A DNA stretch of 64,000 nt from Mycoplasma suis str. Illinois. Lineage in GTDB: Bacteria; Bacillota_I; Bacilli_A; Mycoplasmatales; Mycoplasmoidaceae. The stretch covers positions 496,001-560,000 of the forward strand of contig NC_015155.1 in assembly GCF_000179035.2 (NCBI RefSeq), read 5' to 3'. Of this stretch, positions 20,972 to 53,323 are shown in pieces. The notes under the pieces were generated by a model. It had not been told where the DNA came from. It did not search any database and saw only the letters and a list, made by a program, of their open reading frames with translations. Position 1 is the stretch's first letter, and every line of letters starts with the position of its first letter. The translations under genes and the position numbers were made by a program.

Positions 20972-21984
20972 TTAAGCCTTTAGATTAGCTTCAGAATTAA
21001 GCTCACATTTTTGTTTTTCGTTATTTTCAGAATTTTTACAAATGGAATTTCTTATTTTTCCTTCATAATTTGCCAATTCCAATAAAAAATCTTTTAATTC
21101 TTCCCACTCTTTATTTACCTTTTGTAAATCAATTCTTAAAGAATTCAAACGATCTATTGTCCTGTTTGAGTTTTGATGTAGAGCTGTTCCGCTAGATTTC
21201 AACATTTCAAATAATTTTGAAAAAGAATTAATATTTGACTTTAATTTAGAAAGTTGAGATTTAAGAGGCCCTCCTTCTTTAGTTAGTATTTCCAAAATTT
21301 GGGAATGACCTTGCCCTTCGGCAAGTATTTCCTTAATTTTTTTATTTAGGGAAGAAAATTTACTTTTAACATCGTCTAATGTTTTCTTAGCTTTTTCTCC
21401 TTCTGACTGTTGATCTCCCCCCCTCCAGAATTATTTTCGCTGGAGCTTCTTTGCTCCTTATCTCCCTTCTCTATAGCATTAATAACTGCCTCTAATGCTT
21501 CTTTTCCTTTCTTGAATAGTTTTTCATTTAATTCTTCTCAAATTTTCTTTTGAGAAGAAAGCTCCTGAATTTTTACCAAAATGTTCATTTTTTCTTCTTT
21601 TTGTTTTGAATCTTCCTCAGATACTTTAGATAATTCTTTTATTATTTCGGAATGTTTTTTATAGAAATCTTTTAATTTATTTTCTAAGTCCAAAATGGAC
21701 TTCAAAAATTTTTCCAATTTTTCATATTTAAGTTTTTTAAATTCTTCGGAATTTTTAATAATTTTTGACCAATCTTCAAGCAAAATATTTAATTCTCTTA
21801 ATTTCTCCTTTTCTTTTTCCGAAAATTTAGAAATATTATCTTCTTTTCCGGAAGAATCTTTCTCTTCCAGAAGTAATTTTTTATTTCATTGACTTAATCC
21901 ATAGGGAACTAAATAGGCCGAAAGGCCTGTTGTAGTTCCTGTGACTAAAAGACTTAGGGTTGCTAGTTTAGAAAATAGAAAAAT
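20972..21984 (-). CDS. Family D coiled-coil protein, phase-OFF by poly-G (C7), ATT start
   Basis: The only plausible start is ATT at 21984 (a stop lies two codons upstream): x-FLFSKLATLSLLVTGTTT, GLSAYLVPYGLSQW. First coiled-coil half to about residue 185, then SSSENNSGG and a G7 tract (plus 21417-21423). Eight Gs would restore DQQSEGEKAKKTLDD and the second half ending EEWEELKDFLLEL, NYEGKIRNSICKNSE. 1013 bp is one short of 338 codons. Without the extra G the product ends about 12 residues after the tract. Confidence 0.7.
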
Positions 21985-22032
21985 TTTCTACTAAAGTTCT
22001 TCGTTTTCTTAACTACCTTTTTAAATTTTCGC

Positions 22033-23156
22033 TTATTTAGTTTGCACTTGTGAATTCAGAAAAGAAGACAACTTTACTTCTTCCTTAATCATCTGCATGT
22101 CAAAAAGTAATTTAGAGCTAATTTTTAAATCTAAGAACTTTTCAACCATTAACTTATTATTTTCCAATTTTGTTGTGTCTGATCCGCAACTATAAAAGAA
22201 GGGCATAAATACTAAAGAGCAAAACTTGATTCAAGTATTTTCTCTTTTCTCTTTTATTGATTTCTGAATATTTGAATGAGATTCTTCAAATATTTTTCAT
22301 TCATTTTCATCCATGAAATAGGTATATGGTTTTTCTTGCTCTTGACCCTCTTTTAATTGATTTATCTTTGTTTCGGAAGAATCTCCTCATTTAATTTTTT
22401 GCAAGAAACTTAATATTTTTTGACCTTTATTTTGTTCTTCTATCGCTTTTCTTTCGGAAGAGCTCACTTTAGTAAGTTGATCATTTAAATTTTTCTATCT
22501 TTCTTCAATTGAAGAAATTGTTCATAAAAGGACAAGATACTTTTCTTTTCATTTTTTTCTATATTAGAAGTTTTTTCAGTCTTCAATTTTGAAAAATCTT
22601 GTTGACCATCTGAACTTTTCAATTTACTCAAAACCTCTTTAACTGTTTTCATGCTGTCTGCTCAACCTTTCACATTCTTATAAGATTTTTTGAAATTTTC
22701 TAAATGGCTCGAGAGGGTTCCATTTGATTTGGAAATTTTTTCAATCATTTCATTATCAATTCCTGTAACTCCTTTTTCTTTTTGAATTTCCGAGAAAAGT
22801 CCATTAACAAAGCCAGAAGGAGAGGATTGTTTATTTTCTAAATTCACTCCTTCAAAAACTAATTGATTTAAAGAATCTTCTGTCTGTATATTTAGTTCTT
22901 TGTTTGTGGAAAAATCAGAGACTTTTGTCTCTGACTCTTTTTTCTCTACCTTATTGTCTGAAAAACTTAAAGAACTATTACTTTGTTTCCCTGAACTAGA
23001 AAATAAATCGGAGAATAGGCTTGCAATCCTATTACCTACTAATTTTTCGGATGAACCAGAAAAATCATTTTCTGAAATTCCATTAGAAAATACAAGCCCT
23101 CCAGCCCCTAATAGGGGTAAGGAAAGTAAAAGAGTCTTACCTCTAAGTCGGCCCAA
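22033..23156 (-). pseudogene. Family C-type protein, frameshifted at a 5-A run
   Basis: TTG start, MGRLRGKTLLLSLPLLGAGG, SESETKVSDFS-like motif (ETKVSDFSTNKELN), GLFSEIQKEKGV, then helices to QFLQLKKDRK. The frame stops at GA5TTTAA; six As would give NLNDQLTKVSSSERK and an end similar to the intact gene at 25765 (YFMDENEWKIFEES, NKLMVEKFLDLKISS). Adding one base gives 375 codons. Confidence 0.62.
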
Positions 23157-23214
23157 ACTCTACTTATTAACTTTTTGATAGGGCTTTTAATTATACATAA
23201 GTAAGTTTTTCTAA

Positions 23215-23243
23215 AATAGAGGGGATTTATAATCCCCTCTATT
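23215..23243. terminator. Strong 13-bp hairpin AATAGAGGGGATT/AATCCCCTCTATT
   Basis: Perfect stem with a 3-base loop, followed by GTTTTTT on plus. It sits between the end of hsdS (23344, minus) and the start of the family C gene at 23156, so it likely terminates hsdS. A near copy lies at 26922-26948 in the matching position. Confidence 0.7.
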
Positions 23244-23343
23244 GTTTTTTGGCTATTTAGTAATTTTGAAAAATTTTTATTTTTTGAAATTAAAAGTTAA
23301 GAGAAAATAAAAAGATCCGCAGAGGCTCTTTCTCATTTATTAA

Positions 23344-24533
23344 CTAATAGACTTGAATTTCTTGAGAGAAAAGAGAATCCAAAAGTTTCTTTTTAATTTC
23401 TTCATATTTTTGCATTTTTAATTCCAACTTTTTAATCTTGGAATGAATATTTTTCCAAAAATTATTGAATTTTTCAAGAATTTTTTGGTCTGGAATTAGG
23501 ATTTCTATTTCTTTAAGTTTTTGGGGAGATAAATGTTTTAAAAAAGTAGTTGCGCAGGTAACCCAATTAATTTGTGGGAGGTAAATGATATTTAAAAATT
23601 CAAGCATTAAATATATAAAGTCAGTGGTACCTAGTTTAACAATGAAAGTATCTGTGCTGGCTTGAAATTTTCCAAAGAAAACTTTTGCGTGAAATTTGCT
23701 TCCCCCAGAAGAAACCAAAAGGGCTGGAAAATCATATGAATATGTATAAGATTTTTTGGTCTCAAAAGAACATGTAAAAAATGGATATTTTCCATTCCCT
23801 TCTAACAAATTAGCATAGTTTGCTGGTTTAGTTCCTTTAAGAATTCTTGAAATTTCTCCTATTTTGACTCTCTTCCAGCCTTCAGGTAGCCCCCCCGAAT
23901 AGAGTGACTTTCATAATCAGGAAACCTTAACTTAACAAATCATTCCTTAAAAAGTGATACTTTTAAATTCTTCAATAATTCAATTTGTCTTTCATGATTG
24001 TCAAGAATTAAATCGTATCTAGAAAGAATTTCTCCTATTTTTTGTTGAATTTCTAAGGGGGGTTTGGGGAATTTAATAAAACAAAGTTTATGAAGAGGTA
24101 AGGCATTTCTCTTTGTGGTGGTAAAAGAAAATGAATTTATTTGTTTTTTTACTTCTGCAAAATCGAAAGAATATTTAATGAACTTAGGGTCTGAAATTTT
24201 TTCTAGAGAATTAAATCCGTAAATGTTATTGGAGATGCAGGACTCATCTTTAGTGATAGAAGATTGCCCAGGAAAACTTCCGACATTAACAAAGCAAACT
24301 GTGTTTTTTGGAAAAATTTTTATTATAGGTAGGTTTTTAATCTTTCTTTTATGGTAGTATCTTTGAGTTTGTTTTATGTATAAAAAGTTTTTAATTGCGT
24401 TTCCGTCTACGAAAAAAATTCGATCTTGAATTTTTTCTATTGTCGGAAAATAACTATATTTATTTTCGAAATTTTTTCCTGTGCTAAATGTTCCCAACTT
24501 ATCCAAAGTAACTCATTCTCAGTTAGACCCCAT
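23344..24533 (-). CDS. hsdS: Type I restriction-modification specificity subunit, phase-OFF between its two recognition domains
   Basis: HsdS sets the DNA target of type I R-M enzymes. ATG at 24533 (MGSNWEWVTLDKLGTF). First target-recognition domain to about residue 150, then the central conserved region PPLEIQQKIGEILSRYDLIL and LFKEWFVKLRFPDYES. Next comes G7 (plus 23890-23896), exactly where the Gly before LPEGWKRVKIGEISRILKG, the canonical start of the second domain, should be. With 7 Gs translation ends after YLKAGRESK (TAG at 23859), a 224-aa half subunit; 8 Gs give about 396 aa with the distal helix ILEKFNNFWKNIHSKIKKLE. 1190 bp is one short of 397 codons. No hsdM or hsdR in the window. 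Family recognition is firm; the switch is inferred. Confidence 0.88.
23890..23896 (-). repeat. Phase-variable G7 tract inside hsdS
   Basis: Seven Gs on the coding strand at the junction of the central conserved region and the second recognition domain. In-frame lengths would be 8 or 5. Confidence 0.8.
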
Positions 24534-24672
24534 AAAGTTAATTAATTAAATGGTTCAAAAAATTCCTTAAAAAAATTTAAGTTTTTAGAAATTAGATAAC
24601 TTAATAAAAATTTCAAAATGATTAATCACTAATTATTTCCAGAAGTAACTTCTAAATAAATTAGAGAAAAAA

Positions 24673-24696
24673 TAAGGGCAATTTAAATTGCCCTTA
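24673..24696. terminator. 24-bp perfect palindrome, core AAGGGCAATTTAAATTGCCC
   Basis: Perfectly self-complementary over 24 bases, 28 bases past the stop of the family D gene at 24724 (minus). It can fold as a GC-capped hairpin and fits an intrinsic terminator. The rest of 24534-24723 holds no gene. Confidence 0.55.
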
Positions 24697-24723
24697 ATCC
24701 TTTTCCTGTATTAAATTAGATAC

Positions 24724-25728
24724 TTATTTTTTGACTGACTCTAAATTAATTTCACATTTTCGCTGCTCTTTATTTTGAGAATTACTACACATAAAATTTC
24801 TTACTTTTCCTTCGTAATTTTTCAAAGAAGACATAAATCCCTTTATGTCTTGTCACTCTTCATTAACTTTTTGTAAGTTTTTTCTAAGTTCATTTAATTG
24901 ATCTATTACTTTATTTGATTCCTTGTGCAAAATATCTGCACTAGACTTCAGAATATTAAATAATTTCTCTAAAGCAACCATATTACCTGTAGTTTTTATA
25001 AGTAAGTCGTACAAAACTCCCTCTTGAACTAGCATAGATATTTCATATTTATTCAATTTGTAAATTATTTGTTCTATTTCTCTATTCTTATTAGAGAAAT
25101 CTTTTCTAATCTCTTCTAGTGTTTTCTTAGCTTTTTGACCTTCAGTTTCTTGTTGTTCTCCAGTGCCCCCCCCCGAGGAGGCTGAGGAAGAACTTTCAGA
25201 AATTTTATGTTCTTTCTCTCCTTTTTCTATTGCCTGAACAATGGAATCTAATATTTCGCTACTCTTTTTAAATAATTTTTCATTCATCTCTTGTAATGCC
25301 TTTTTCCTTACTGAAAGTTCTTTTAGTTGGACATAAATCTTTAATTTCTCTTCTTTTTGCTCGGAATCTAAAGAAGAAATTTGTCCGAGTCTTTTTATTA
25401 TTTCTTCATGATTTGAATAAAAATCTTTCAAAGTTTGTTCAGAGCTAACAATTGAACTAAGAAATTTATTTATTTCCTCTTTCTTTATGTCTCTTAATTC
25501 TCTAGATTTTTCTAGAGAATTAACTAAATCTCGCAACAAAAGTTTTAAGTCCTCTAATTGTTTACTTTCTTCTTCTTTGAATTTAGAAATATCTTTCTCA
25601 AGTGAAGAAGATTTTCCTTCTTCTGAATTTCAAACTCCTAAGCTGTAGGGAATAATATAGGCTGAAAGGCCTGTAGTTGCTCCCGCAACTAAAAGGCCTA
25701 AAGTAGAAAGCTTAGAAAAAAGAAAAAT
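24724..25728 (-). CDS. Family D coiled-coil protein, phase-ON poly-G (C9), ATT start
   Basis: 334 aa, intact. Start must be ATT (stop TAA seven codons upstream, no ATG before residue 70): x-FLFSKLSTLGLLVAGATT, GLSAYIIPYSLGVW. First half coiled coil (RDLVNSLEKSRELRDIKKEE), then SSSASSGGGTGEQQETEG where G9 (plus 25166-25174) is in frame. Second half ends VNEEWQDIKGFMSSLKNYEG, KVRNFMCSNSQ. This copy shows the full-length form the OFF paralogues would make. Confidence 0.78.
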
Positions 25729-25764
25729 TTCTCTTAAATCTTCTGATTATCTATTTTTTAATTT

Positions 25765-26862
25765 TTATTTATTTTCTGGAATAAACATCTTAGTCTCTCC
25801 CTGAATAATTCCCATTTTATGTAACAATCTGGAAGCAATTCTTAAGTCTAAAAATTTTTCGACAATTAATTTGTTACTTTCAATTGTTTTTTCTGGTCGC
25901 GAATAACACGCGAAATTAAAAGGGAATATACATAATTTTTCGAAAAAAGTTAATTTAGACTCTTCTTCTTTGATTTTTTGTATATTTTCTGAAGATTTTT
26001 TAAATAATTCTCATTCTTGTTTATCCATGAAATAAGAATATGGTTCTTTAGAATCTCCTTCTCCTCCGGAAAATTGATCTAAATTAGTTTTCACATTATT
26101 CCCTCAATCGATTCTTTTCAAAAATTGAACGATACTTTTTTCTTGATTATCTGTTGTCTCTCTAGCATTTCTTCTTTTTGTTCCCTTTTCAGAGAGTTGA
26201 TCGTTCAATTTTTCACTTTCTTCCTTCAATTCAAGAAATTTTTCATAAAAAGAAAGCAAACCTTTTTTGCCTTCAATTGTTAAGGATTCTAAGGATTTGG
26301 TTTGCAAATTCGAAAAATCTTTTTCTTTTATTTTTCTTTCCATATCTTTTAGCAATTTCATATTTTCTCCTCAATTTTTAATTTCGGACATTACACCTTT
26401 AAAACCGTTAGCGAATTCTTTCAGCCCTTCTTCAACTTTTAATAACTTTTCCGACATTTTTTGATTAACTTCCCGGGTTTTCCCTTCTTTTTGAATTTCT
26501 GTAAAGATTCCTTTAACAGAAATATCTGAATCTTGATCTTTCTGAATTTTTAATTCTTCAAAAATGTCTAGACTTCTTGTTTTTTCTTCATTCTGAATTT
26601 CTAAATTACTAGAAGAAAAATCAGAGACTTTTGTCTCTGATTTTGTTCTTTCTACTTTGTTTTCATAAAAACTTAAAAAGTTTTCTTGTTTTTCTTTTTC
26701 ATGAAAAAGAGAAGAAATTAAATTAGAAAATTTTTGGCCCAATAAAGTTTTGGGATGGATGGAGGAGTTGTTATTTGCAATTCCATTAGATAAAACAACT
26801 CCTCCAGAACCAGCAGCTACAGGTAATGAAAATAAAAGAGCCTTAACCCTCGAATGGCCCAA
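25765..26862 (-). CDS. Family C-type exported protein, intact
   Basis: 365 aa, TTG start. Anchor MGHSRVKALLFSLPVAAGSG, KSETKVSDFSSSNLE, KGIFTEIQKEGKT, a long helical body, basic KGTKRRNARETTD, FLKRIDWGNN, YSYFMDKQEWELFKKSSE, two Cys in FEKLCIFPFNFACYS, then NKLIVEKFLDLRIASRLLHK. Intact partner of the frameshifted gene at 22033; with it forms a sub-group lacking the strong R-x-R-R-R-R stretch of 12451. Confidence 0.75.
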
Positions 26863-26921
26863 GCTCTAGTTTTTAGTTTGTAAATAGAGCTTCTAATTAT
26901 AGAAAAGTAACTTTCCGCAAA

Positions 26922-26948
26922 AATAGAGGGACATTAAATCCCTCTATT
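26922..26948. terminator. 10-bp hairpin AATAGAGGGA/TCCCTCTATT
   Basis: Near copy of the hairpin at 23215-23243, here between the family D gene ending at 27027 and the family C start at 26862. The hairpin was duplicated together with the D-C or hsdS-C junction. Confidence 0.6.
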
Positions 26949-27026
26949 CGTTTACTTTTATTTTTTTAAGTTTGCGAAAATAACGACCCCTTAGGGTCGA
27001 CTTTTTGAAAATTACTTAGAAATTTT

Positions 27027-28032
27027 TTAAGTTACTTGGCTCGTTGAAGTTTCACATTTTTGAATCTCTGAATATTGAGTATTTTTACAAAGAGAGTTTT
27101 GTATTTTTCCCTCAAAATTTTGAAAATAAGATAATTTGATTTTCAGTTCTTCTCACAATTTAAGAGTTTCTTTTAATTGTTTTCTGAACTCATTCAGTTT
27201 ATTTATTGCCTCATTAATTTCCTCTCTTTTATCCAACGATTCAGCATTTAAAACTTCAGAATATTCTCTCATTTTCTCTATAAATTCTTCCAATCTTAAA
27301 AGAAATCTTCTTGAATTTATTGTGTAATTAGTTAATCTACTTTCTTCTTGTCAAATACTTAATTGTTTATTTTGTATTTTTTCGCTAATAGAAGAAAAAT
27401 GTTTTTTAACTTCTTCTAAAGAGTTTTTGGCCTCTTTGCTTGCGCTCTGCTTTCCTTCTTGAGTGCCCCCCCCCCGCAGAGGAAGAATTGGAGTTAGATG
27501 ATTGACTACTTTCATTTTTTTCTATTTCGGAGACAACAGAATCTAATAAATTTTTTCTAGCTTTCAAAAATTTATCAATTTCATTCAATAAATTTCTTCA
27601 ATAAATCGATTTTGAAAGAAAAGATTGAAATTTCATTCTATTTTCATTAATATCAGTTATTCTTTTCAAATTTTCAGATAATTTTTGTAGTATTGAGGAG
27701 CTCTCTTCATAAAGTTGGGTTAATTTATTTTCTGATTGAGAAATAGACTGAAATAGCTTTATCATTTCTTGATTTTTTAGATCTCTGAAAGTTTCTGAAT
27801 TTTTAACAGCTTCTTCTAACTTTTCCAATAAAGGTTTAAGGATCTTTAATTTTTGATCTTCTTCTTCCTTAAATTCTTTTGAATTTTTATTTTCGGCAAA
27901 AGGATTGGAATTAGAAAATAAAGTGTCTTGAGCTGCAGTACTTCCCATTTCATAAGGAATTAAATATGCTGAAAGGCCGGAAGTTCCAGCTAATAAAACC
28001 CCTAAAGTTATTACTTTTGAGAAAGTAAACAT
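27027..28032 (-). CDS. Family D coiled-coil protein, phase-OFF by poly-G (C10)
   Basis: MFTFSKVITLGVLLAGTSGL, SAYLIPYEMG; coiled-coil half one (PLLEKLEEAVKNSETFRDLK), then SSNSNSSSAGGG and G10 (plus 27466-27475). Nine Gs would give GTQEGKQSASKEAKNSLEEV and half two ending KLWEELKIKLSYFQNFEGK, IQNSLCKNTQYS. The present frame stops about 20 residues after the tract. 1006 bp is one over 335 codons, consistent with one extra G. Confidence 0.75.
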
Positions 28033-28073
28033 TTAATTACTTAAGAAAATTTATATATAAAAAACTAAAGAAA

Positions 28074-28088
28074 CCGCTTCTAGAGCGG
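28074..28088. terminator. Family D intergenic hairpin CCGCT/AGCGG
   Basis: Hairpin followed on minus by a T-rich stretch (TTCTTTAGTTTTTTATATAT), 14 bases upstream (plus left end at 28074) of nothing but spacer, between the gene ending at 28114 and the start at 28032. One of at least five similar elements between family D genes. Confidence 0.6.
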
Positions 28089-28113
28089 ATTCTAAACTCA
28101 AAATTTGTAATTT

Positions 28114-29106
28114 TTACTTAGAAACTTTTAGTAATTGGTCAGAACATTTTTCTAAATTTTCGAATTGAGTATTTTTGCAAACTGAATTTTTTATTTTTCC
28201 CTCAAAGTTTCTGAAATAAGATAACTTATCTTTTAATTCTTCTCAATTTTTTAAAGTTTTTCTCAATTGCTCTTTCAAATTATTTAGATTGTTTATGACC
28301 TGATTTATTTCAGACTCTGTCTCTTTAGAATCGATTTGCAAATCAGAAGAAAGAGATTCTAAGAAACTGATAGTTTCTCCCAATTCAAAAAGAAGTAATT
28401 TCAACTTAATTTCATAATTAGATAAATCTTTCTGAGAGATTCAAATTTTTAATAACTTTTGCTGAATATTTAAATTAACAGTTAAAAATTCTCTTTCTAC
28501 GTCACTTAATACTCTTTTAGCTTCTGCGCTAGCTCCTTTTCCATTACTGGAAGATCCAACAGTTTCCTGAGAATTAGAAGAATTTTCATTTTTGTTTATT
28601 TCTGAAATTACTGCTTGCAAAGCATTTTCCTTAGATCTGAAAAATTCATCTAATTTACTAAACAATTTTTTGTAATAGTTTGCTCCCAAAATATTTGCTT
28701 GAACTTTATTTTTGTTTTCATATTGTTTAATTGTTTCTTCCAGAGACTTAGATAATTTCTCCATAATTTCTTTATTTTTCTTGTAAAGTTCTGACAATTT
28801 ATTTTCAGTTTCAAGAATTGTTTCAAAAGATCTTTTCATACTATCATTCTGAAGATTTTTAAATTCTTCAGAATTTTTAACTGCTTTATTTAACTCCGCT
28901 AATAAAGGATCTAATGTCTTAAGCTTTTCTTTCTCATTTTCAATAAATTCTTTTGAATTTTTTCCCCCAACTAAAGAATTTGAAAGGCTAAATAAAGTAT
29001 TTTGAGCTGTAGCGTTTCCAAACTTATAAGGAATTAAGTAGGCTGAAAGGCCGGAACCTCCGGCCAAAAGAGTCCCTAAAGTTATTGCTTTAGAAAAAAG
29101 AAACAT
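28114..29106 (-). CDS. Family D coiled-coil protein, intact, no poly-G tract
   Basis: 330 aa. MFLFSKAITLGTLLAGGSGL, SAYLIPYKFG; half one with LLAELNKAVKNSEEFKNLQN. At the usual tract position it reads VGSSSNGKGASAEAKRVL with mixed codons, so it cannot slip. Half two ends NWEELKDKLSYFRNFEGKIK, NSVCKNTQFEN. A constitutively full-length member flanked by switchable ones. Confidence 0.77.
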
Positions 29107-29185
29107 TTTTTAGGCTAACAAAAGGTTTTATATAAGGTTGAGAAATCCACTCCAGGAGAGGACTTCATTTATAAAATTTGTGATT

Positions 29186-30162
29186 TTATTTAGAAATTTT
29201 TAATGACTGTTCAGAACATTTCTCAAACTCCTTAAATTGAATATTCTTGCAAATTAAATTTTTTATTTTTCCTTCAAAATTTTGAAATAAATAAATTTTT
29301 TCTTTTATTTGTTCTCACTCTTCATAAATGCTATTTGACTTTCTTCTCAATTCATTTAATTGAGAAATTACATTATTCGATTTTTCTTGAAGTAAGGTTC
29401 CTTCAAGAGCTAAAGCTTCAATAATTTTTTCTAAAGAAGTTATGCTGACAGTTATCTTAAAAAGATTTGAATCTATCAATTCTTTTTCCTTTTCGAGAGA
29501 ATTTCTCTCTAACTTGTCACTTTTATCCAAAAGCTCTCTTATTCCTTTTCTTGAGGAAGATATTTCATTTTTAACTTGATTTAATGTTTCTTTTGCTTGA
29601 CTTCCAGCCGTAACTTCTTGTTGTTGGTTGCTGCCCCCCCCGCAGGATTATTTCTATTTCCTTCATTTATTGCATCTTCTATTGACTCAAAAACTCCTTC
29701 TCATTTTTCAAAAAATTCATTAAATTGTTTCAATAATTTTCTCTCGGAAGAAAGACTTTCCAAAACAGATAGAACTTTCAATTTTCTTTCTCTTTGATCT
29801 TTTAGTCAAGAGGAAACTTCGGATAAGTTACCCATGACATCGGAATGCTTTTTATAGTTTTCCTTTAATTCGCTCTCTTCGCTAGTAATGGAATTTAAAA
29901 ATTCTTCCAATCCTTTATTCTTTAAGTCTTTTAAATCTACTGAATTCTTAATTGCTTTAGTCAATTCTTCACTCAAAAGACTTAATGTCTTTAACTTTTC
30001 TCCTTCCTCTTTTAAAAATTTCTCTGAATCTTTATTGTCTGAAGAAGAGGCTCCAGAAAACAAAGAGAAATTTCCTAATCCATAAGGAATTAAGTAAGCT
30101 GAAAGGCCGGATGTTCCGGCCAATAAAATTCCTGCAGTTAATGTTTTGGAAAATAAAAACAT
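29186..30162 (-). CDS. Family D coiled-coil protein, phase-OFF by poly-G (C8)
   Basis: MFLFSKTLTAGILLAGTSGL, SAYLIPYGLG; half one to GNRNNPAGG, G8 (plus 29634-29641). Nine Gs would continue GSNQQQEVTAGSQAKETLNQ; the present frame ends about 18 residues later. Half two carries SLEKIIEALALEG and ends YEEWEQIKEKIYLFQNFEGK, IKNLICKNIQF. 977 bp, one short of 326 codons. Confidence 0.75.
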
Positions 30163-30310
30163 TTTTTATCTATTGAAAACTCTATATAAAAACTAAGAAA
30201 TCTGTTTCCAGAGCGGACTTCATAGTAAAAAAATTGATTTTTTAGTATTAAGAATTTCTAATAAAAAATTTAAATTCTCTCTTTTCGCATAGCAAATAGA
30301 TATGGTATTG

Positions 30311-30802
30311 TTAAGTTGTTTTTTCTTTATAGAAAGAACAACTAATTTCTACTCTGATTCTTTCCTCCACCACTTTACATTTCTTTCTTAAAGAAGGAAA
30401 TCCTTTGTCTAAATCCAAATTATCATTAATTTCTTTATTTTCTAAATCGTTTTGTTGAGTTTTTCAAGTTTTCAACATTTCATTAACTTGTTGTTTTTCT
30501 CCAGTTATTCACAAACCGATTATTTGTTCATTTTTATTTCTTTCATTAATCTCTTTAGTCCAGGGAGTATCACAATTTTCTAATATCTTTGCACCTTCTT
30601 CTTTGTTTTCCCTAGAAAGAGTTCCGCATTCTTGTTTTTTTCCATTTTTAAATAAATATTCTCAGGTAAATTCAGAATTTTTAGCTAATTCTGAAAGCTT
30701 TTCTCCATTTAATCTGTTATTCAATTCAAGACCTCCTATTGCTAAACCGCTACCAAGAATTCCAATAGCTAAAGATGTTAGGACTCCTTTAAGTCCTATC
30801 AC
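30311..30802 (-). CDS. Family B exported protein, GTG start
   Basis: 163 aa. MIGLKGVLTSLAIGILGSGL, then FTWEYLFKNGKKQECGTLS, NCDTPWTKEINE, IIGLWITGEKQQVNEMLKTW, RKKCKVVEERI, VEISCSFYK. Same order as other members but with an E-Y-L/V-F/L-K-N-G-K/D-K-x-x-C-G module shared with 30842, 38799 and 39552. It sits between two family D blocks. Confidence 0.72.
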
Positions 30803-30841
30803 TTAATTATTTAAAGAATATTTTTAAACCTTTTCTTTAAA

Positions 30842-31393
30842 TTATTGGTTATCTGACTGCGTCTCTGACGAGTCAGATGGTTTAGATTTTTTCTCAAATT
30901 TACAAATTATTTCCACATTTCCTTCCTTCTCTTTAATTTCACATTTACTTTCTGTTTTTAGAGAATTAATTCCTCCTTCCGTTTTTATTTGTTCGTTTAA
31001 TTCTTTATTGTCTATATCATTATTGGAATCTTTTCAAACATTCAGCATACTCTCAACAGATTCTTTATTTCCGGAAACCCACAATCCTAAGATATTCTCT
31101 CCAGAATTTTTATTTTTTATTTCTTTTGTTCAAGGGGTGACACATTTTTCTTCTCCAACTTGAGCGCCCTCTCCGTCATTTAATTTCAGACTACCACAGA
31201 TAACCTTCTTATCATTTTTCAAAACATATTCTCAAGAAAACTCTTCACCTATTTGAATATCTTGTTTTAAGTCTTTATTAGTTAAATTCTTTAAGCCCAT
31301 ATATTCTTTACCTGCATATACTGCTCCACTACCAGCAATTCCAACCAACAACATTCCTGAAAATATTTTTCCAATTAAAGCTAAACTTGCCAA
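30842..31393 (-). CDS. Family B exported protein, TTG start
   Basis: 183 aa. MASLALIGKIFSGMLLVGIA, GSGAVYAGKEYMG; FSWEYVLKNDKKVICGSLKL, KCVTPWTKEIKN, ILGLWVSGNKESVESMLNVW, ESKCEIKEKEGN, VEIICKFEKK, and a Ser/Asp tail. Closest to the gene at 30311. Upstream spacer holds one of the CCGCT hairpins (31422-31438). Confidence 0.72.
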
Positions 31394-31421
31394 TTTAGTT
31401 CTTTATATATAAATTAAAGAA

Positions 31422-31438
31422 GCCGCTCTGTAAGCGAC
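31422..31438. terminator. Family D-type intergenic hairpin GCCGCT/AGCGAC
   Basis: Imperfect copy of the CCGCTCT...AGCGG element, between the family D stop at 31462 and the family B start at 31393. T-rich on the minus side, so a terminator for the family D gene is likely. Confidence 0.5.
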
Positions 31439-31461
31439 TTCAAAAGTCAAAAATTGAAATT

Positions 31462-32449
31462 TTATTTATTTCTTTCCACCAAAGCATCACATTGATTTTT
31501 TTCTTTAAATTGGGAGTTTTTGCAGATAATGTTTTTTATTACTCCTTCATAATTTTGGAAAAAAATCATTTTTTCTTTTACTTCTAATCATTCTTTGTGA
31601 ATTTCCGATAATTTTTGCTTAGTTTCATTCAATTTCTTAATAATTTCATTGGATTTTTCTTGAAGTTCTTGCCCATCGAAATAAAGAGAAGAAAACAATC
31701 TTTCTAAAGAGAGAATATTTAAAGAAACATTAAGAAGTGATGAATCTATTAAATCTTTTTGTTTGGAAAGGGAGGTTCTTTCCAATTCATCACTTTTTTG
31801 AAAAATTTTTTTAATATTCTCTCTTTCTGAAGAAATTTGTTTGCGAACTTCTCTTAATGTTTCTTTAGCTCTTTTTCCCTCGGTTTCTTGTTTCCCCCCC
31901 ATTAGAATCTGAATTTTGAGCTCTTAATTCATTATTCTTATCTCCACTATCTATAGCTTCTAGGATTGAACTAAATAATTTTTCTCAATTTTCAAAAAAT
32001 TCATTAAATTTTTTCAGTAACTTTATTCCACTTGAAATATTCTCTAATTCTGCTAACACTTTCATTTTTCTATTTCTTTGATCTGAAATCAAAGAAGAAA
32101 TTCTGGAAAGATTTTTAATTACTCCTGAATGATTTTCGAAAACTTCAGACAATTTACTTTCTGTTTGAGAGATTGTCTTTAAAGCTTCTTCTATTCCTTG
32201 ATTTTTTATATCCTTAATACTCTCTGAATCTTTTATTGCTTTGGATAATTTTTCAAGTAAGGGTTTTAATATTTCCAACTTTTCTTCCTCTTCTTTTATG
32301 AATTTTTCTGAACTTCCATCCTTCAAAGAAATATTGTCCGTAGAAAATATGGAATTTTGTGCCAAGCTATAGGGGATTAAATAAGCTGAAAGTCCTGAAG
32401 TTCCTGCCAAAATAACTCCTAAAGTTATTACTTTTGAAAAAGTAAACAT
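31462..32449 (-). CDS. Family D coiled-coil protein, phase-OFF by poly-G (C7)
   Basis: MFTFSKVITLGVILAGTSGL, SAYLIPYSLAQ; half one with KLSKAIKDSESIKDIKNQ, then RAQNSDSNGG and G7 (plus 31894-31900). Six or nine Gs would give KQETEGKRAKETLREV and half two ending HKEWLEVKEKMIFFQNYEGV, IKNIICKNSQF. The present frame ends about 10 residues after the tract. 988 bp, one over 329 codons. Confidence 0.74.
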
Positions 32450-32512
32450 TCCTAAATATTCAAAGAAAATTTACACTTATTCCCCCTTAATGAGGATCTC
32501 AAGAATTTTTAA

Positions 32513-33524
32513 TTATTCTTTCGATAAAGTTAAACATTCATTCTCATCTGAATTTTGAAAATTCTGGCAGATTTTATTTTTAGTTTGTCCTTCATAATTT
32601 TGAAAAACAAGAATATCTTTTTTTATTTCTTCCCACTCCTCATTAACTCTCTTAATTTCTTTCTTCAAATTATTCAAACTATCTATTGTTTGATTAATTT
32701 GAATTTTCTTTCCAGAAGCTTCCGCACTTAAATAAGAAATTAAGACTTTTAGGGAAGTCATATTCAATTTCAGTTTGAAAATGAAATCAAACAATTCTAC
32801 CTCTTTTTTCACTAATTTCAATTCGAGTAAATCTTCTCCTTTGAGGAGGATGTTTTTTAATTCTTCGGAAATTGAAGAAAATTCTCTCTTAACACTTTCT
32901 AATGTTTCTTTAGCTTTTTCTGATTCTCTTTTTTCTTGACTTCCTGATTGCCCCCCCCCCAGCAGAACCGGAAGAGGAAGAAGAACTTTCTGACATTTGT
33001 GGTGTATTTTGTGAGCCTTTATTTATCTCTTCCACTATTTTTGTGGAAGATCCTTCTCAACTTTTAATAGCTTCATTCAATTTTTTCAATAATTTTTTTT
33101 GATAAGAAACATTTTCTAATTCAGATTGTTTTCAGAACGATTCTAGATTTAATCTATGCAATTCTTCCGACAACTTAAGAATTAAATTAATAATTTTTAA
33201 ATCTTTTTCGTAAAGATTAGTTAAGTTTCCCTCTTCTTTCGAGATAGAGGAGAAAAGTTTTTCTATTTTTTCTTGCTTAAGATTTCTCAATTCAAATAAA
33301 TTTTTTAGAGCTAAAAATAATTTTTCTTTCAAAGAATTAAGGAGATCTAAGTTTTCTTTTTCTGAGATAGAAAAATTTTCTAATGTTTTTTCTGAAGAGA
33401 TGGGGGAAGAAAACAAAAAATCTTTAGATTTTCCTCCCAAACCATAAGTAATTAAGTAACCTGAAAGTCCGGAACTTCCGGCCAATAAAGCACCTAAAGT
33501 TATTATTTTTGAGAAAGTAAACAT
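32513..33524 (-). CDS. Family D coiled-coil protein, phase-OFF by poly-G (C10)
   Basis: MFTFSKIITLGALLAGSSGL, SGYLITYGLGGK; half one helical; SSSSSGSAGGG then G10 (plus 32951-32960). Nine Gs would give QSGSQEKRESEKAKETLESV and half two ending NEEWEEIKKDILVFQNYEGQ, TKNKICQNFQN. 1012 bp is one over 337 codons. Confidence 0.75.
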
Positions 33525-33546
33525 TCTTTCTATAAAGTTAAAAGAT

Positions 33547-33561
33547 CCGCTCTCAGAGCGG
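33547..33561. terminator. Family D intergenic hairpin CCGCTCT-C-AGAGCGG
   Basis: Seven-base perfect stem, the best-formed copy of the element, between the stop at 33591 and the start at 33524. T-rich run follows on minus (CTTTTAACTTT). Confidence 0.6.
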
Positions 33562-33590
33562 GTTTAATGTTAAAAATTCATAATTTTTGA

Positions 33591-34591
33591 CTATTCTTTT
33601 TCATTTGAGACTAAACATTTATCTTTTTCTGAGAACTGAATATTCTTGCAAATAATTTTTTTAATTTTTCCTGCATAATTTTGGAAATAAATAATTTTTT
33701 CTTTCAGTTCTATTCATTCTTCGTGAACTTTTCTTAATTCCTCTTTCGAAATATTTAATTCAGAAATAGTTTTATTTATTTGCAATTGAAGCTCAATGGA
33801 AACCATATTTAGATCTACAGAAAAATCTTTAAGTATAGAAGCAGTTTCCTCTAATCTTTCCAAAAGTAATTTTTGTCTAACTTCAGACATTTGCAATTCA
33901 TTTTCTGTTTTTCAAAATTTTGCTAATTCTTGTTGCAAACTTACTTCCATTAAAGAAAAAGTTACTCTAACATCTTCTAATGCATTTTTTGCATTTCTGC
34001 TGGCTTCACTAGCTTCCTTATTATGTTCATTCTCAGTATTTTGTGCCCCCCCCGAGATTCTGAACTTTCAGAATTATTTCTATCTATTTCCTTAACCACA
34101 GAACTCAATAATTTTTCTTGCGCCTTAATGAACTTATCTAATTGATTCAATAAATTTTTCAAATAATTTATTGTTTTTAGATTTGATTGAATTTTTAACT
34201 TATTCTCGTTTTGATTAGAAATTTCTTTTAAAGTGGAAGATAATTTCTGAATTATCTTCAAATTTTTATTGTGAAAATCTATTAGTTTATTTTCTGTTTC
34301 CAGAATTTTTTGAAAAAATTCTTTCATTTTTCCATCTTTAATATCTTTTAGATTTATAGAATTTTTAACAGCTTTTTCTAATTCTTCCAGAAGAGGATTC
34401 AAAGTTTCTAACATTTTCTTTTCTTTTTCAGAAAAATCTTTAATATTTTCGGAAACATTGGAGTCGCTCTGAGAGGAAAATAAAAAATCTTTAGCTTTTT
34501 CTCCCAAACTATAAGGAATTAAATAGGTTGAAAGGCCGGTTGTTCCGGCCAATAAAACCCCTAAAGTTATTACTTTTGAGAAGGTAAACAT
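33591..34591 (-). CDS. Family D coiled-coil protein, phase-OFF by poly-G (C8)
   Basis: MFTFSKVITLGVLLAGTTGL, STYLIPYSLGEK; half one with LLEELEKAVKNSINLKDIKD; NNSESSESRGG then G8 (plus 34046-34053). Nine Gs would give AQNTENEHNKEASEASRNAK and half two ending HEEWIELKEKIIYFQNYAGK, IKKIICKNIQF. The present frame adds about 20 basic residues and stops. 1001 bp, one short of 334 codons. Confidence 0.75.
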
Positions 34592-34650
34592 TTAACTATT
34601 TTTAGAAATTACCACCCCAAAATTCAAGCCTTTCAATTGTTCTCTAACTA

Positions 34651-35670
34651 TTATTTTTGAAATAAATTTTTTGAAAAATCTTTGCAATTCACTGTTTCTT
34701 CTCGAGAATCACTTATATATTTATGTTCAGAATTTTTGCAAATAGCATTTTTCAAAATTCCTCCATAATTTTGAAAAGAAGCTATTTTCTTTTTAATCTC
34801 TTCTCAATCTTGATTTGCTTGTTTTAACTTTTCTCTTAATTGGTTCAATTCTTCTATTTTTTTATTAATTTCTTTTTGTTTTTCTAAAGATTTTTCTTGT
34901 AGGCCGGCAACCGATAAGTTTAGAAAAGCTATGCTGGTACGTAAATTCACGAAATAAAAAGTTAAACTAGTTTCTTCTTTCAATAATTCTCCTTCCTTTT
35001 TACTTTTTTCCAATAACAAAGAAGTTAGAGAGGCTTGAACTTTTTGAAAATTTTCATTAACTTCTTCTAATGTTTTCTTTGCTTGCGTTGAAGCGCTAGT
35101 GCCCCCCCCCGCAGAAGAAGTTGTGCTAGAAGTTTGATTTTCTTTATCTTTCTCTTCTATTAATTTCACAATCGGCTCTAAGTTGCCATATAAAGAATTA
35201 ATGGATTCTCCTATTTTTTTCATCAAATTTTGCAAGTACTCATTTCTTCTTAAATTTGCTTCAATCTCCATTTTTCTATTACTTTGTTGTTTAGCTTCTC
35301 CAAGCAATTTTTCTATATTTTCTATGAGCTCTTTATTTTTCTGATAAAGGGATGAAAGTAAGGAATCAGTGCTAGTTATAGATTGCATAAAGTTTTGCAT
35401 AGATTGATTAATTAAGTCCCGCAACTCAATAGATTTTTTTAGAGTTTTTGTTAATTCAGAGAACAAAATTCTTAATTGCTCTAGTATTTCTTTTTCTTCT
35501 TTCGAGAAATTTTCCCATTTTCCTGAAGAAGAAGAATATGAAGATTTAAAGAGGGCTTCATTGACTGAATTTTTTGAGCCACTCAAATAATAGGGAATTA
35601 AGTAGGCTGAAAGCCCAGAACCTCCAGCCAACACAACTCCTAGAGATATTACTTTAGAGAAAGTAAACAT
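34651..35670 (-). CDS. Family D coiled-coil protein, phase-ON poly-G (C9)
   Basis: 339 aa, intact. MFTFSKVISLGVVLAGGSGL, SAYLIPYYLSG; half one ELTKTLKKSIELRDLINQSM; TTSSAGGGTSASTQAKKTLE with G9 (plus 35102-35110) in frame; half two with long helices, NQLREKLKQANQDWEEIKKK, SFQNYGGILKNAICKNSEHK, then a 25-residue C-terminal extension with a further Cys. It heads the 34.6-37.8 kb sub-cluster sharing the Y-L-S/K-x-S/A start. Confidence 0.78.
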
Positions 35671-35697
35671 TTAGTTATTCATGTAAAACTAAAGAAA

Positions 35698-35713
35698 CCG
35701 CTCTAGAAGAGGG
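35698..35713. terminator. Family D intergenic hairpin CCGCTCT-AGA-AGAGGG
   Basis: Slightly imperfect copy of the repeated element, between the stop at 35727 and the start at 35670. Confidence 0.5.
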
Positions 35714-35726
35714 TTAAATTTAATTT

Positions 35727-36762
35727 TTATTCTTTCTTGTTGGGAGAATTTTCTTCTTCTTTTTCGCAATCTATTTTGAAATATTTCTCCGCTATTGAAA
35801 AATTTTTGAGTTGTGAATTTTGACAAATAGCATTTTTAAGAGAGCCTGAATAATTTTTAAAAACAGGTATTAAATCTTTTAAGTCTTCTCACTCATCATT
35901 AATTTCTTTAAGTTCTTTTCTATATTTGTTTAACTCATTTATTTGTTTATTAATTTCTTCTTGTTTTTCTTTTCTCTTCTCATTAAGTCCTGAAATTAAC
36001 AAATTCAAGAAAGCCATGTTAGCTTGTAAGTTGTAAATTGCGGAAGTAAATTTTGCTCTATTCAATAAAAATCCTGTAGTTAATTGACTTTGTTGAAGAG
36101 ACATAGAAGCTAAAAATAATTGAACTTCTTCAAATTTCTTTTTCACTTCTTCTAATGTTTCTTTAGCTTTTCTTGAGGCTTCGCTGCCAGAGCTTTTTGT
36201 TCCTGTGCCCCCCCCGAGGAATTATTTTTATTCATTTCTTCTTTATTTATTGCTTCTGTAGTTGTCTCGAAAATTTATTTAAATGATCAATTAATTCTTT
36301 TAGCTGGGACAATAATTTTCCATAATATTCGGATTCCTTCAATTTAGACTCATTATCCAACTTATTCTTAGTTTGCTTCTTTATCTCCTCATACAATCCC
36401 TCAACTCTACTCATTATTGTTTGACTTTCTTTATAAAGAGAAGATAACTTTGTATCTGAATTGAAAATTTTTTCCATAAGTTCTTTCATAGATTTATATT
36501 TCAAATCTCTTAATTGAATGGACTTTTTAACAATTTCTGCAAATTTTTCATATAAAGGATTCAAATCTTTAAGTTTTTGCTCTTCTTCTTTGGAGAATTC
36601 TCCCAAATCATCAAAAGGGTGTGGAAGATTTCTGTCCTCAAAGAAAGTTTTTCCGGCAGTATTTTCAGAATCTTTTAGATAAAAGGGGATTAAGTAAGCT
36701 GAAAGTCCGGAACCTCCGGCTAATAAAACTCCTAAAGTTATTACTTTTGAAAAAGTAAACAT
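35727..36762 (-). pseudogene. Family D protein with two -1 frameshifts (T run and C8 tract)
   Basis: MFTFSKVITLGVLLAGGSGL, SAYLIPFYLKD; half one to HLNKF. A T4 run near 36270 needs one more T, and G8 (plus 36208-36215) needs nine. With both, the protein is 345 aa, with GTGTKSSGSEASRKAKETLE at the joint and half two ending NDEWEDLKDLIPVFKNYSGS, LKNAICQNSQL. 1036 bp is two short of 346 codons. Two separate lesions suggest this copy is more than simply switched off, unless the T-run is a sequencing error. Confidence 0.62.
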
Positions 36763-36823
36763 TGATTAATTCAAAAAACTATATAAGATAGCTTAAAGAC
36801 TCTGTTTTTTTGGTCAAAAACTA

Positions 36824-37830
36824 TTATTGGGATGATTTTTCACAATTTATTTTTTCCTCATTTTCAATTAATTCATCTAATTGAAGTTCCGAATTCTTAC
36901 AGATAGCATTTCTAAGAACTCCTTCATAATTTTTGAAAAAAATAACTTTTTCCTTAATATCCTCTCATTCTTTGTTAATTTCTCTCAATTCTTTTCGCAA
37001 TTTATTTAATTCCTCTATCTTTTCATTTATTTTTTCTTGATTTTCTTTTGATTTCAAGTTAAGGGATGATACTAACAAATTAAGTAAAGAAATATCTGCC
37101 CTTAAAGAAGATAGATAAAGTAACAGGTCTGCTCTTTTATTCAAAACAATTGAAGTTAATTTTTCTTTTTGTGTTGACAAATCAATAAAAAATATTTGTT
37201 GTTTTTGGAAGTTCAATTTCACTTCCTCTAATGTTTCTTTTGCTCTTTTAGAAGCTTCGCTATTGGAATTTTCTTGATGTCCCCCCCCGAAGTAGAGGAG
37301 GATTCTTGTCCTTTCTCTATTGCCTCAATAGTTGTTTCGAAAAAACTAAGTAATTTTTCTATTGAGCTTCCCAGTTGTTTTAATCAACTTTCAGAACTTT
37401 TACTTTGAATTAATTCAGATTCGGCACTCAACTTACTTATTTCTTTTTTCTTAATAATTTCACTAAATTTTTCTAATTCTGAGATAATCTTTTCTCCATT
37501 CTCGTAAAGACTAGATATTTGTGAATCTGTATCTAAAGATGATTTAAAAAGCTCTTTCATTTTTTCATACTTAAGACCTCCGAGAACAAAAGATTTTTTC
37601 AAAATTTCAGATAATTTTTGGAAAAGAATTTTTAAATCTCCCAATAATTCTTTTTCTTTTGAGGAAAAATTTTCTAGATTGTCTGACTTATCGTAGGAAT
37701 TGGAAAACAATGTTTTGTTTACTCCTTCTGGCTTTGCTTCGCTTAAGTAATAAGGAATTAAATAGGCAGACAACCCAGAAGTTCCGGTCAATAAAACTCC
37801 TAAAGTTATTACTTTCGAGAAAGTGAACAA
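36824..37830 (-). CDS. Family D coiled-coil protein, phase-OFF by poly-G (C8)
   Basis: TTG start, MFTFSKVITLGVLLTGTSGL, SAYLIPYYLSEAK; half one helical; QESSSTSGG then G8 (plus 37281-37288). Nine Gs would give HQENSNSEASKRAKETLEEV and half two ending NKEWEDIKEKVIFFKNYEGV, LRNAICKNSEL. 1007 bp, one short of 336 codons. Confidence 0.75.
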
Positions 37831-37870
37831 TTTAGTTAGTTAAAAATTCTATATATAAAAACTAAAGAAT

Positions 37871-52256: not shown

Positions 52257-53280
52257 CTATTGTGATTTTTGAAGTGAGACACATTTAGAGCTATCTGTGC
52301 TTTCTGTATTTCTACAGATAGCAGTATTTACTAATCCTTTGTAATTAGTAAATACAATAACTTGATTTTTTAGAGTTTCTCACTCTTTACTTAAAACTAC
52401 TAAAAATTTTTTTAGTTTATTTAATTGTTCTGTTTGATTTTTAGTATCTTCTTGAACATTATTAGATTTCTTCAGTAAATCTTTAGAAAGATAATCTAAG
52501 AAATTTATGTTTATTCCCAGAAAGGAAATAAATTTATTCAAATCTATTTTCCTTTCTGAAAGATCCATTCTCAAATACATATTTTGATTGAGAATTAAAT
52601 TTAACTTTTTTACTTCTTCTGAAAGTTTCCCTTTAATTTCTTCTAATGTTTTCTTTGCCTTGGCCCCTTCTTGGCCTTCAGCGCCCCCCCCTCGAGGACG
52701 AAGAAGATAATTCTTCACTAGTTCTTGAACCCTCAGAACAAGTTTGCCCTTTATTGTCTATTGCGCAAACAAAATTACTAAATGATTTTTTTCATGATTC
52801 AAAAACTTTTTGATCTAGTTGACTCAATAAGTTATCTAAATTACTTAATATTCCCTGCGCAGCAGTTCAATCCATTCTAGACTTATTCAATTTAGATAAC
52901 TTTTCGAAAGTTTCTGATAATTTACTCATAAGCTCAAGATGTTTTTTAAAAAGAGTCTTTAATTTTTCTTCTGAACTTGAAATGGAAGATAAAGTTTCTT
53001 CCATTTCTTTACTTTTAGATGTTTTGTTTTTATCAGTTTCTTCTGATACTTCTCCCAAAAGAAGAGAAAGAGGAGTCAATACTCCCAATCTTTCTTTTTC
53101 TTCTTTAGAGAAGTTATCTAACTTTTGTGAACTATCTAAAGATTCAGAAGAGGAAAAAAATAAATCATTTAATTTTTTTCCTGAAGAATCTTTAATACTT
53201 AGAGGTATTAAATAAGTAGATAATCCTATAACTCCAAAAGTGAGAGTGCTTAGAGTAAGTATCTTAGAAAATAAAAGAAT
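52257..53280 (-). CDS. Family D coiled-coil protein, phase-OFF by poly-G (C8), ATT start
   Basis: Start inferred at ATT (53280) by alignment: x-LLFSKILTLSTLTFGVIG, LSTYLIPLSIK. Half one coiled coil (LKTLFKKHLELMSKLSETFE), then two Cys in NFVCAIDNKGQTCSEG, unusual for the family, SSSSSRGG and G8 (plus 52684-52691). Seven or ten Gs would give AEGQEGAKAKKTLEEIKGKL and half two ending KEWETLKNQVIVFTNYKGLV, NTAICRNTEST. 1024 bp, one over 341 codons. Confidence 0.72.
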
Positions 53281-53323
53281 CTTAGTTAAGTATTACTTTT
53301 GGAGTTAAGTTAAATATTAAGAA

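Follow-up and report, generated by a model that had tools for sequence, protein, structure and literature searches.

The closest described counterpart of the gene studied here is found in the NgoAV type I system of Neisseria gonorrhoeae. According to PMC9577141, a poly-G tract, seven Gs long in most strains, terminates HsdS after its N-terminal half (208 of 410 aa). Changing the tract by one base fuses the two halves, and the half and fused forms differ in specificity. In other mycoplasmas, hsdS genes bearing AG(n) repeats have been recorded (Atack et al. 2020, cited in PMC9465063), and these repeats are expected to make methyltransferase expression or specificity vary. For Mycoplasma suis itself, the 2011 genome paper noted scattered orphan hsd genes of unclear function, and a 2013 review counted 13 hsdS genes and supposed that such genes cycle on and off (PMC3874165). 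Phase variation was also proposed for hsdS genes with tandem repeats in the M. haemofelis paper (PMC3196708). Repeat-bearing hsdS genes are a known kind; their placement at a domain junction across paralogues and species, and the maintenance of the second halves, were not found stated in the accessible literature.

The window analysed here is a 64,000-nucleotide stretch, bases 496001-560000 of the 742,431-bp single contig of M. suis str. Illinois, and all translations used code 4 (TGA = Trp). The hsdS gene under study, termed SW, lies on the minus strand. Its N-terminal half is an ORF of 224 aa at 23859-24533 (ATG start at 24533, stop at 23859), containing the first target-recognition domain (TRD1) and the whole of the central conserved helix CR1 (23925-24056, about residues 160-203), followed by a short out-of-frame tail past the tract, with RGGYLKAGRESK as the C-terminal end before the stop. 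The proposed slippage switch is a homopolymer of seven Gs on the coding strand (seven Cs on the plus strand) at 23890-23896, which starts 40 nt past the KEWF at the end of the central helix, at the junction of CR1 and TRD2. With seven Gs, TRD2 is out of frame; it is encoded together with the C-terminal conserved helix at 23344-23889 (minus strand; 181 aa plus stop, no internal stop). The distance from the ATG to the distal stop is 1190 nt, or 3 x 396 + 2, and eight Gs (or five) join the halves into 396 aa.

Both pieces match Methylase_S (PF01420) above the cut-off (E=6.9e-8 for the N half and 1.1e-8 for the C half), and the N half is a relative of the S subunit of PDB 1yf2 (E=2.8e-11). The two-TRD architecture of type I HsdS is present in these pieces, with the TRDs joined only after a change in the tract. 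The preliminary description, which had proposed a type I specificity subunit with a G7 between the central region and the second TRD, a 224-aa half at seven Gs and a two-TRD subunit at eight, is borne out on all these points. Its analogy with NgoAV likewise fits the architecture as given in PMC9577141, where the G tract lies at the end of hsdS1: the tract in SW ends the N half after the central region, and a one-base change gives one open frame. An AlphaFold2 model of the half protein, built on an alignment of only the window's two halves, is of low confidence (pLDDT 38), with helix 160-203 its best-predicted part. Together the observations support SW as an orphan type I hsdS with a tract at the domain junction, of half or full length according to frame.

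A terminator-like hairpin with a T run (24673-24696, minus strand; a pattern match only) separates hsdS from the surface-type gene that lies upstream, which suggests that SW may be a single-gene unit. The promoter scan of the gene gave fewer matches than were obtained in shuffles.

At least seven consecutive Gs occurred anywhere in the gene in 43 of 2000 dinucleotide shuffles of SW (2%), and G or C tracts of at least seven are frequent genome-wide, with 401 overlapping matches. Given this abundance, the tract by itself is neither remarkable nor decisive; its position is. The codons used in it are disfavoured in the genome, CGG making up 1.1% of Arg and GGG 15% of Gly codons. An uninterrupted G7 was also found at the same place in the paralogue S4 (82% nucleotide identity to SW) and in P4 (70%), an hsdS of the 564-kb M. 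parvum-like genome G004.

The M. suis Illinois genome was sequenced by 454 GS-FLX at 38.6x, with Sanger reads for one gap only (PMC3091866), and 454 can miscount homopolymers. It could be argued from this that the G7 is a miscall and that SW is a fixed full-length hsdS. This explanation is improbable, as in S6, S8 and S9 the same type of interruption sits at (GA)n, a dinucleotide repeat and not a homopolymer, and P4, from another species, has G7 at the same site with the same frame break. A long run of Gs here would be mutable whether or not its length had been counted correctly. The neighbouring genes also argue against miscalling. In a surface-type paralogue family (minus strand, 20972-37839 and 52260-53292), a run of 7-10 Gs, read as C on the plus strand, lies in mid-gene; the two copies with nine (25166 and 35102) are in frame as single ORFs of about 340 codons, whereas those with seven, eight or ten are each broken into overlapping ORFs, one of about 150-170 codons and one of about 200. 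Together the copies form a clear series of slippage states. Each surface gene may be able to switch by itself, since it has its own tract that is in frame only at nine Gs, and the earlier suggestion that the SW switch coordinates the surface genes is not supported by these observations.

Tract lengths were read from one M. suis strain, and the length variation described here is between paralogues and related species, not within one gene; a scan of genome contigs for relatives returned a single distant match, and none from another M. suis strain. Twenty hsdS genes were compared, namely SW and its ten M. suis paralogues (S1-S10) and nine hsdS of the M. parvum-like genome (P1-P9), with each repeat placed by its distance from the KEWF, or its equivalent, that closes the central helix. 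Simple repeats of G, C, GA, TA or TC were found in all ten paralogues and in the hsdS genes of the M. parvum-like relative. In 13 of the 20 genes a repeat starts within one 18-nt stretch, 39-56 nt past CR1: G7 in 'RGG' at +40 (SW, S4 and P4), (GA)n in 'ERER' at +39 to +44 (S6, S8, S9, S10 and P9), and G8 or G10 in 'LISAGG' at +56 (S5, S7, P2, P3 and P5). These three junction repeats are unrelated sequence types, and the probability that three positions drawn at random lie within 18 nt of one another is about 5e-4. Further downstream are (TA)n at +87 in P6-P8 and G8 at +114 in S1, with tracts deep in TRD2 in S2 and S3. Upstream of the helix, C8 or C9 occurs at a PP motif in S1, S3, S8-S10, P1, P2, P5, P6 and P9; the homologous place in SW is a C6 on the coding strand (24057-24062). 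Repeat lengths differ between M. suis paralogues of one type: S5 has G8 and S7 has G10, the two requiring frame shifts in opposite directions, and the GA type is represented by (GA)7, 11, 11 and 12; such differences are what slippage would be expected to produce.

S10 (395 aa, GA type) is the only full-length hsdS in the assembly among the eleven of M. suis, and in the M. parvum-like genome P1 is full length and has no junction repeat. The break points in the assembly are at the junction in SW, S4, S5, S6, S7, S8 and S9, inside TRD2 in S1 and S2, and at the C8 tract in S3. It was also observed that S3 (genome 328897-330200) has two possible switches, the out-of-frame C8 at the PP motif and (TC)13 inside TRD2, and that a C5-cytosine DNA methyltransferase gene (PF00145; genome 332100-333080) adjoins S4. 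In each of the six hsdS genes inspected in a 757-kb relative (G001), a G8 lies within the central helix ('LLDAEGG'). All six share one split state, and the position of the tract is unlike that in M. suis, a point that counts against the half/full reading.

Comparison of C halves gave dN/dS of 0.16 for SW/S4 (190 codons), 0.25 for SW/P4 and 0.24 for S8/S10, and no internal stop interrupts these silent second halves. Being open and having such ratios, they appear to be maintained under purifying selection, with the proviso that the averages span each pair's history and leave room for very recent silencing. This bears on the proposal that SW has decayed and is retained solely to supply TRDs for recombination. 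Its orphan location is in keeping with that proposal, as are the unclear function assigned to the orphan hsd genes in 2011, the near-identical TRD2s of S8/S10, S6/S9 and P6/P8, and the extra frame breaks of S6 and S7. The latter genes (genome 662387-664000) are broken in or near TRD1/CR1 at places with no obvious repeat, which may reflect decay or sequencing error. SW, however, has no lesion besides the frame break at the tract, and its silent half is under apparent purifying selection. Extra lesions are instead found in P4, the SW-like gene of the M. parvum-like relative, which has an additional frame break, and in a fragment in L056. The closest match to HsdM1 in that relative is 51% at best (the counterpart of HsdM2 is 91%), so lesions there are as expected if an hsdS is kept only with its partner. 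The dead-copy proposal is accordingly quite improbable for SW.

The preliminary description would have been contradicted by a genome without hsdM. Two complete sets of hsdM and hsdR are present, neither of which adjoins SW: hsdM1 (genome 218829-220673) with hsdR1 (220675-223857), and a second hsdM, hsdM2 (660438-662279), with a second hsdR (672522-675686). They contain the HsdM_N, N6_Mtase, HSDR_N and SWI2/SNF2 domains, with intact NPPF, Walker A, DEAH and PD-ExK motifs. CR1 of SW shares 95% identity with the CR1 of S2, which lies beside hsdM1/hsdR1, and about 50% with those near hsdM2; on this ground the partner of SW is most likely the HsdM1/HsdR1 pair (218829-223857). A third hsdR (677542-680829) is in two pieces, one encoding HSDR_N and the other the helicase, and about 75 nt upstream there is a C9 tract.

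Whether the 224-aa protein would be active is the point on which the main reading differs from plain ON/OFF switching, under which the truncated product is inactive, seven Gs being OFF, eight ON, with one specificity. Several of the other repeats look like simple OFF switches. A frame shift at C8/C9 before CR1 leaves a TRD without a helix (S3, P2 and P6), and repeats there or inside TRD2 (S2 and S3) fit plain ON/OFF switching equally well; at some of these places truncation can only inactivate. CR1 and CR2 of SW are also poorly alike, their alignment being weak (score 27) and better in S10 (44). For this reason a CR1-CR1 contact between two SW halves, and the symmetric homodimer, are less certain than the preliminary description implied; homodimers were noted only in type IC systems in the 2013 review (PMC3874165). 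On the other hand, the commonest break point keeps one TRD and the whole of CR1, the same cut as in a half HsdS that is active in Staphylococcus aureus, and half-length HsdS exist as free-standing genes in related genomes. In the M. haemofelis-type genomes G010 (1,147,259 bp) and G019, hsdS arrays around hsdM consist of single-TRD ORFs of about 190-216 aa, and all six array ORFs tested had one Methylase_S match each. Half subunits would thus appear to be a normal form in the hemoplasma lineage. Plain ON/OFF switching of SW is on balance unlikely, while a serious competitor. The tandem arrays (G010 524501-541000 and G019 432001-445000) contain many half-length HsdS of two or three C-terminal classes and one hsdM; their sequences suggest that the array proteins may be obligate heterodimers.

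Half and full proteins could in principle be made from one sequence by programmed -1 ribosomal frameshifting at G GGG GGC, as CGG GGG GGC fits X XXY YYZ and TRD2 would be in frame after a -1 shift. No stimulatory RNA structure was found downstream of the SW tract (z=0.5). S4 shares the G7 but requires a shift in the other direction, and no heptamer of this kind is present in the genes of GA type. Frameshifting was therefore judged unlikely, and indeed very remote as an account of the tract.

The tract may also have a third phase. A third-frame ATG (23912-23914, minus strand) within GATTATGAA ('DYE') precedes the G7 by 18 nt in SW and S4 and occupies the same place in P4; in S6, S8, S9, S10 and P9 a comparable ATG is found 7-8 nt ahead of the (GA)n. 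It is already in frame with TRD2 in S4 (190-aa ORF) and S6 (184-aa ORF), and in SW and P4 it would be at six or nine Gs, a phase in which we infer that the C half could be read from this putative start of its own. EcoDXXI halves reassemble when co-expressed (PMC3874165). It is conceivable, though doubtful, that in such a three-state system N halves from some hsdS genes and C halves from others are made separately and pair in trans on one HsdM; more specificities would then be obtainable from the roughly eleven genes.

The best explanation, to which a probability of roughly 55% is given, is that the SW tract is an NgoAV-like half/full specificity switch. Replication slippage at the G7 would alternate the present half subunit (TRD1 plus CR1) with a two-TRD subunit. 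Either product would work with an HsdM/HsdR pair encoded elsewhere, probably HsdM1/HsdR1, and switching would change which DNA sites are methylated and restricted. SW is one of some eleven hsdS genes with a similar construction, and slippery repeats in nearly all of them would probably allow the DNA marks to be reshuffled at random. This reading is well supported rather than demonstrated, slippage, HsdM1 pairing, half-subunit activity and the change of specificity being the steps that we infer. Most orphan hsd genes of M. suis can now be read as two-domain specificity genes with slippery repeats, the majority at one domain boundary. If the switch is real, an uncultured blood parasite of pigs would be able to alter its methylation specificity at random and on a large scale, and half/full switching in the manner of NgoAV would be a strategy of the whole lineage instead of an isolated oddity. 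With switchable, fixed full-length and obligate half-length HsdS all represented among hemoplasmas, the origin of two-domain specificity subunits would become testable.

Like the AG(n) genes of Atack et al. (2020), the M. suis hsdS genes have simple repeats inside the gene, but here the repeats are of several kinds (G, C, GA, TA and TC) and are concentrated past CR1. The hsd loci of M. pulmonis are likewise Mycoplasma type I systems of varying specificity; their variation (cited in PMC3196708 and PMC9465063) is by DNA inversion and TRD shuffling, whereas slippage at the junction is proposed for M. suis. The arrays of M. haemofelis type share with the SW half a half-length HsdS of one TRD and helix, in many copies near hsdM, but there the halves are separate genes of fixed length with almost no repeats. 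NgoAV (hsdS1/hsdS2) resembles SW most closely, with a poly-G tract at the end of the N half and fusion by a one-base change. It is a single hsdM-hsdS1-hsdS2-hsdR locus in which a deletion fuses the halves, while SW is an orphan in which an added G (or the loss of two) would do so; and SW differs further in its complete and conserved C half and in having about ten paralogues that are built alike.
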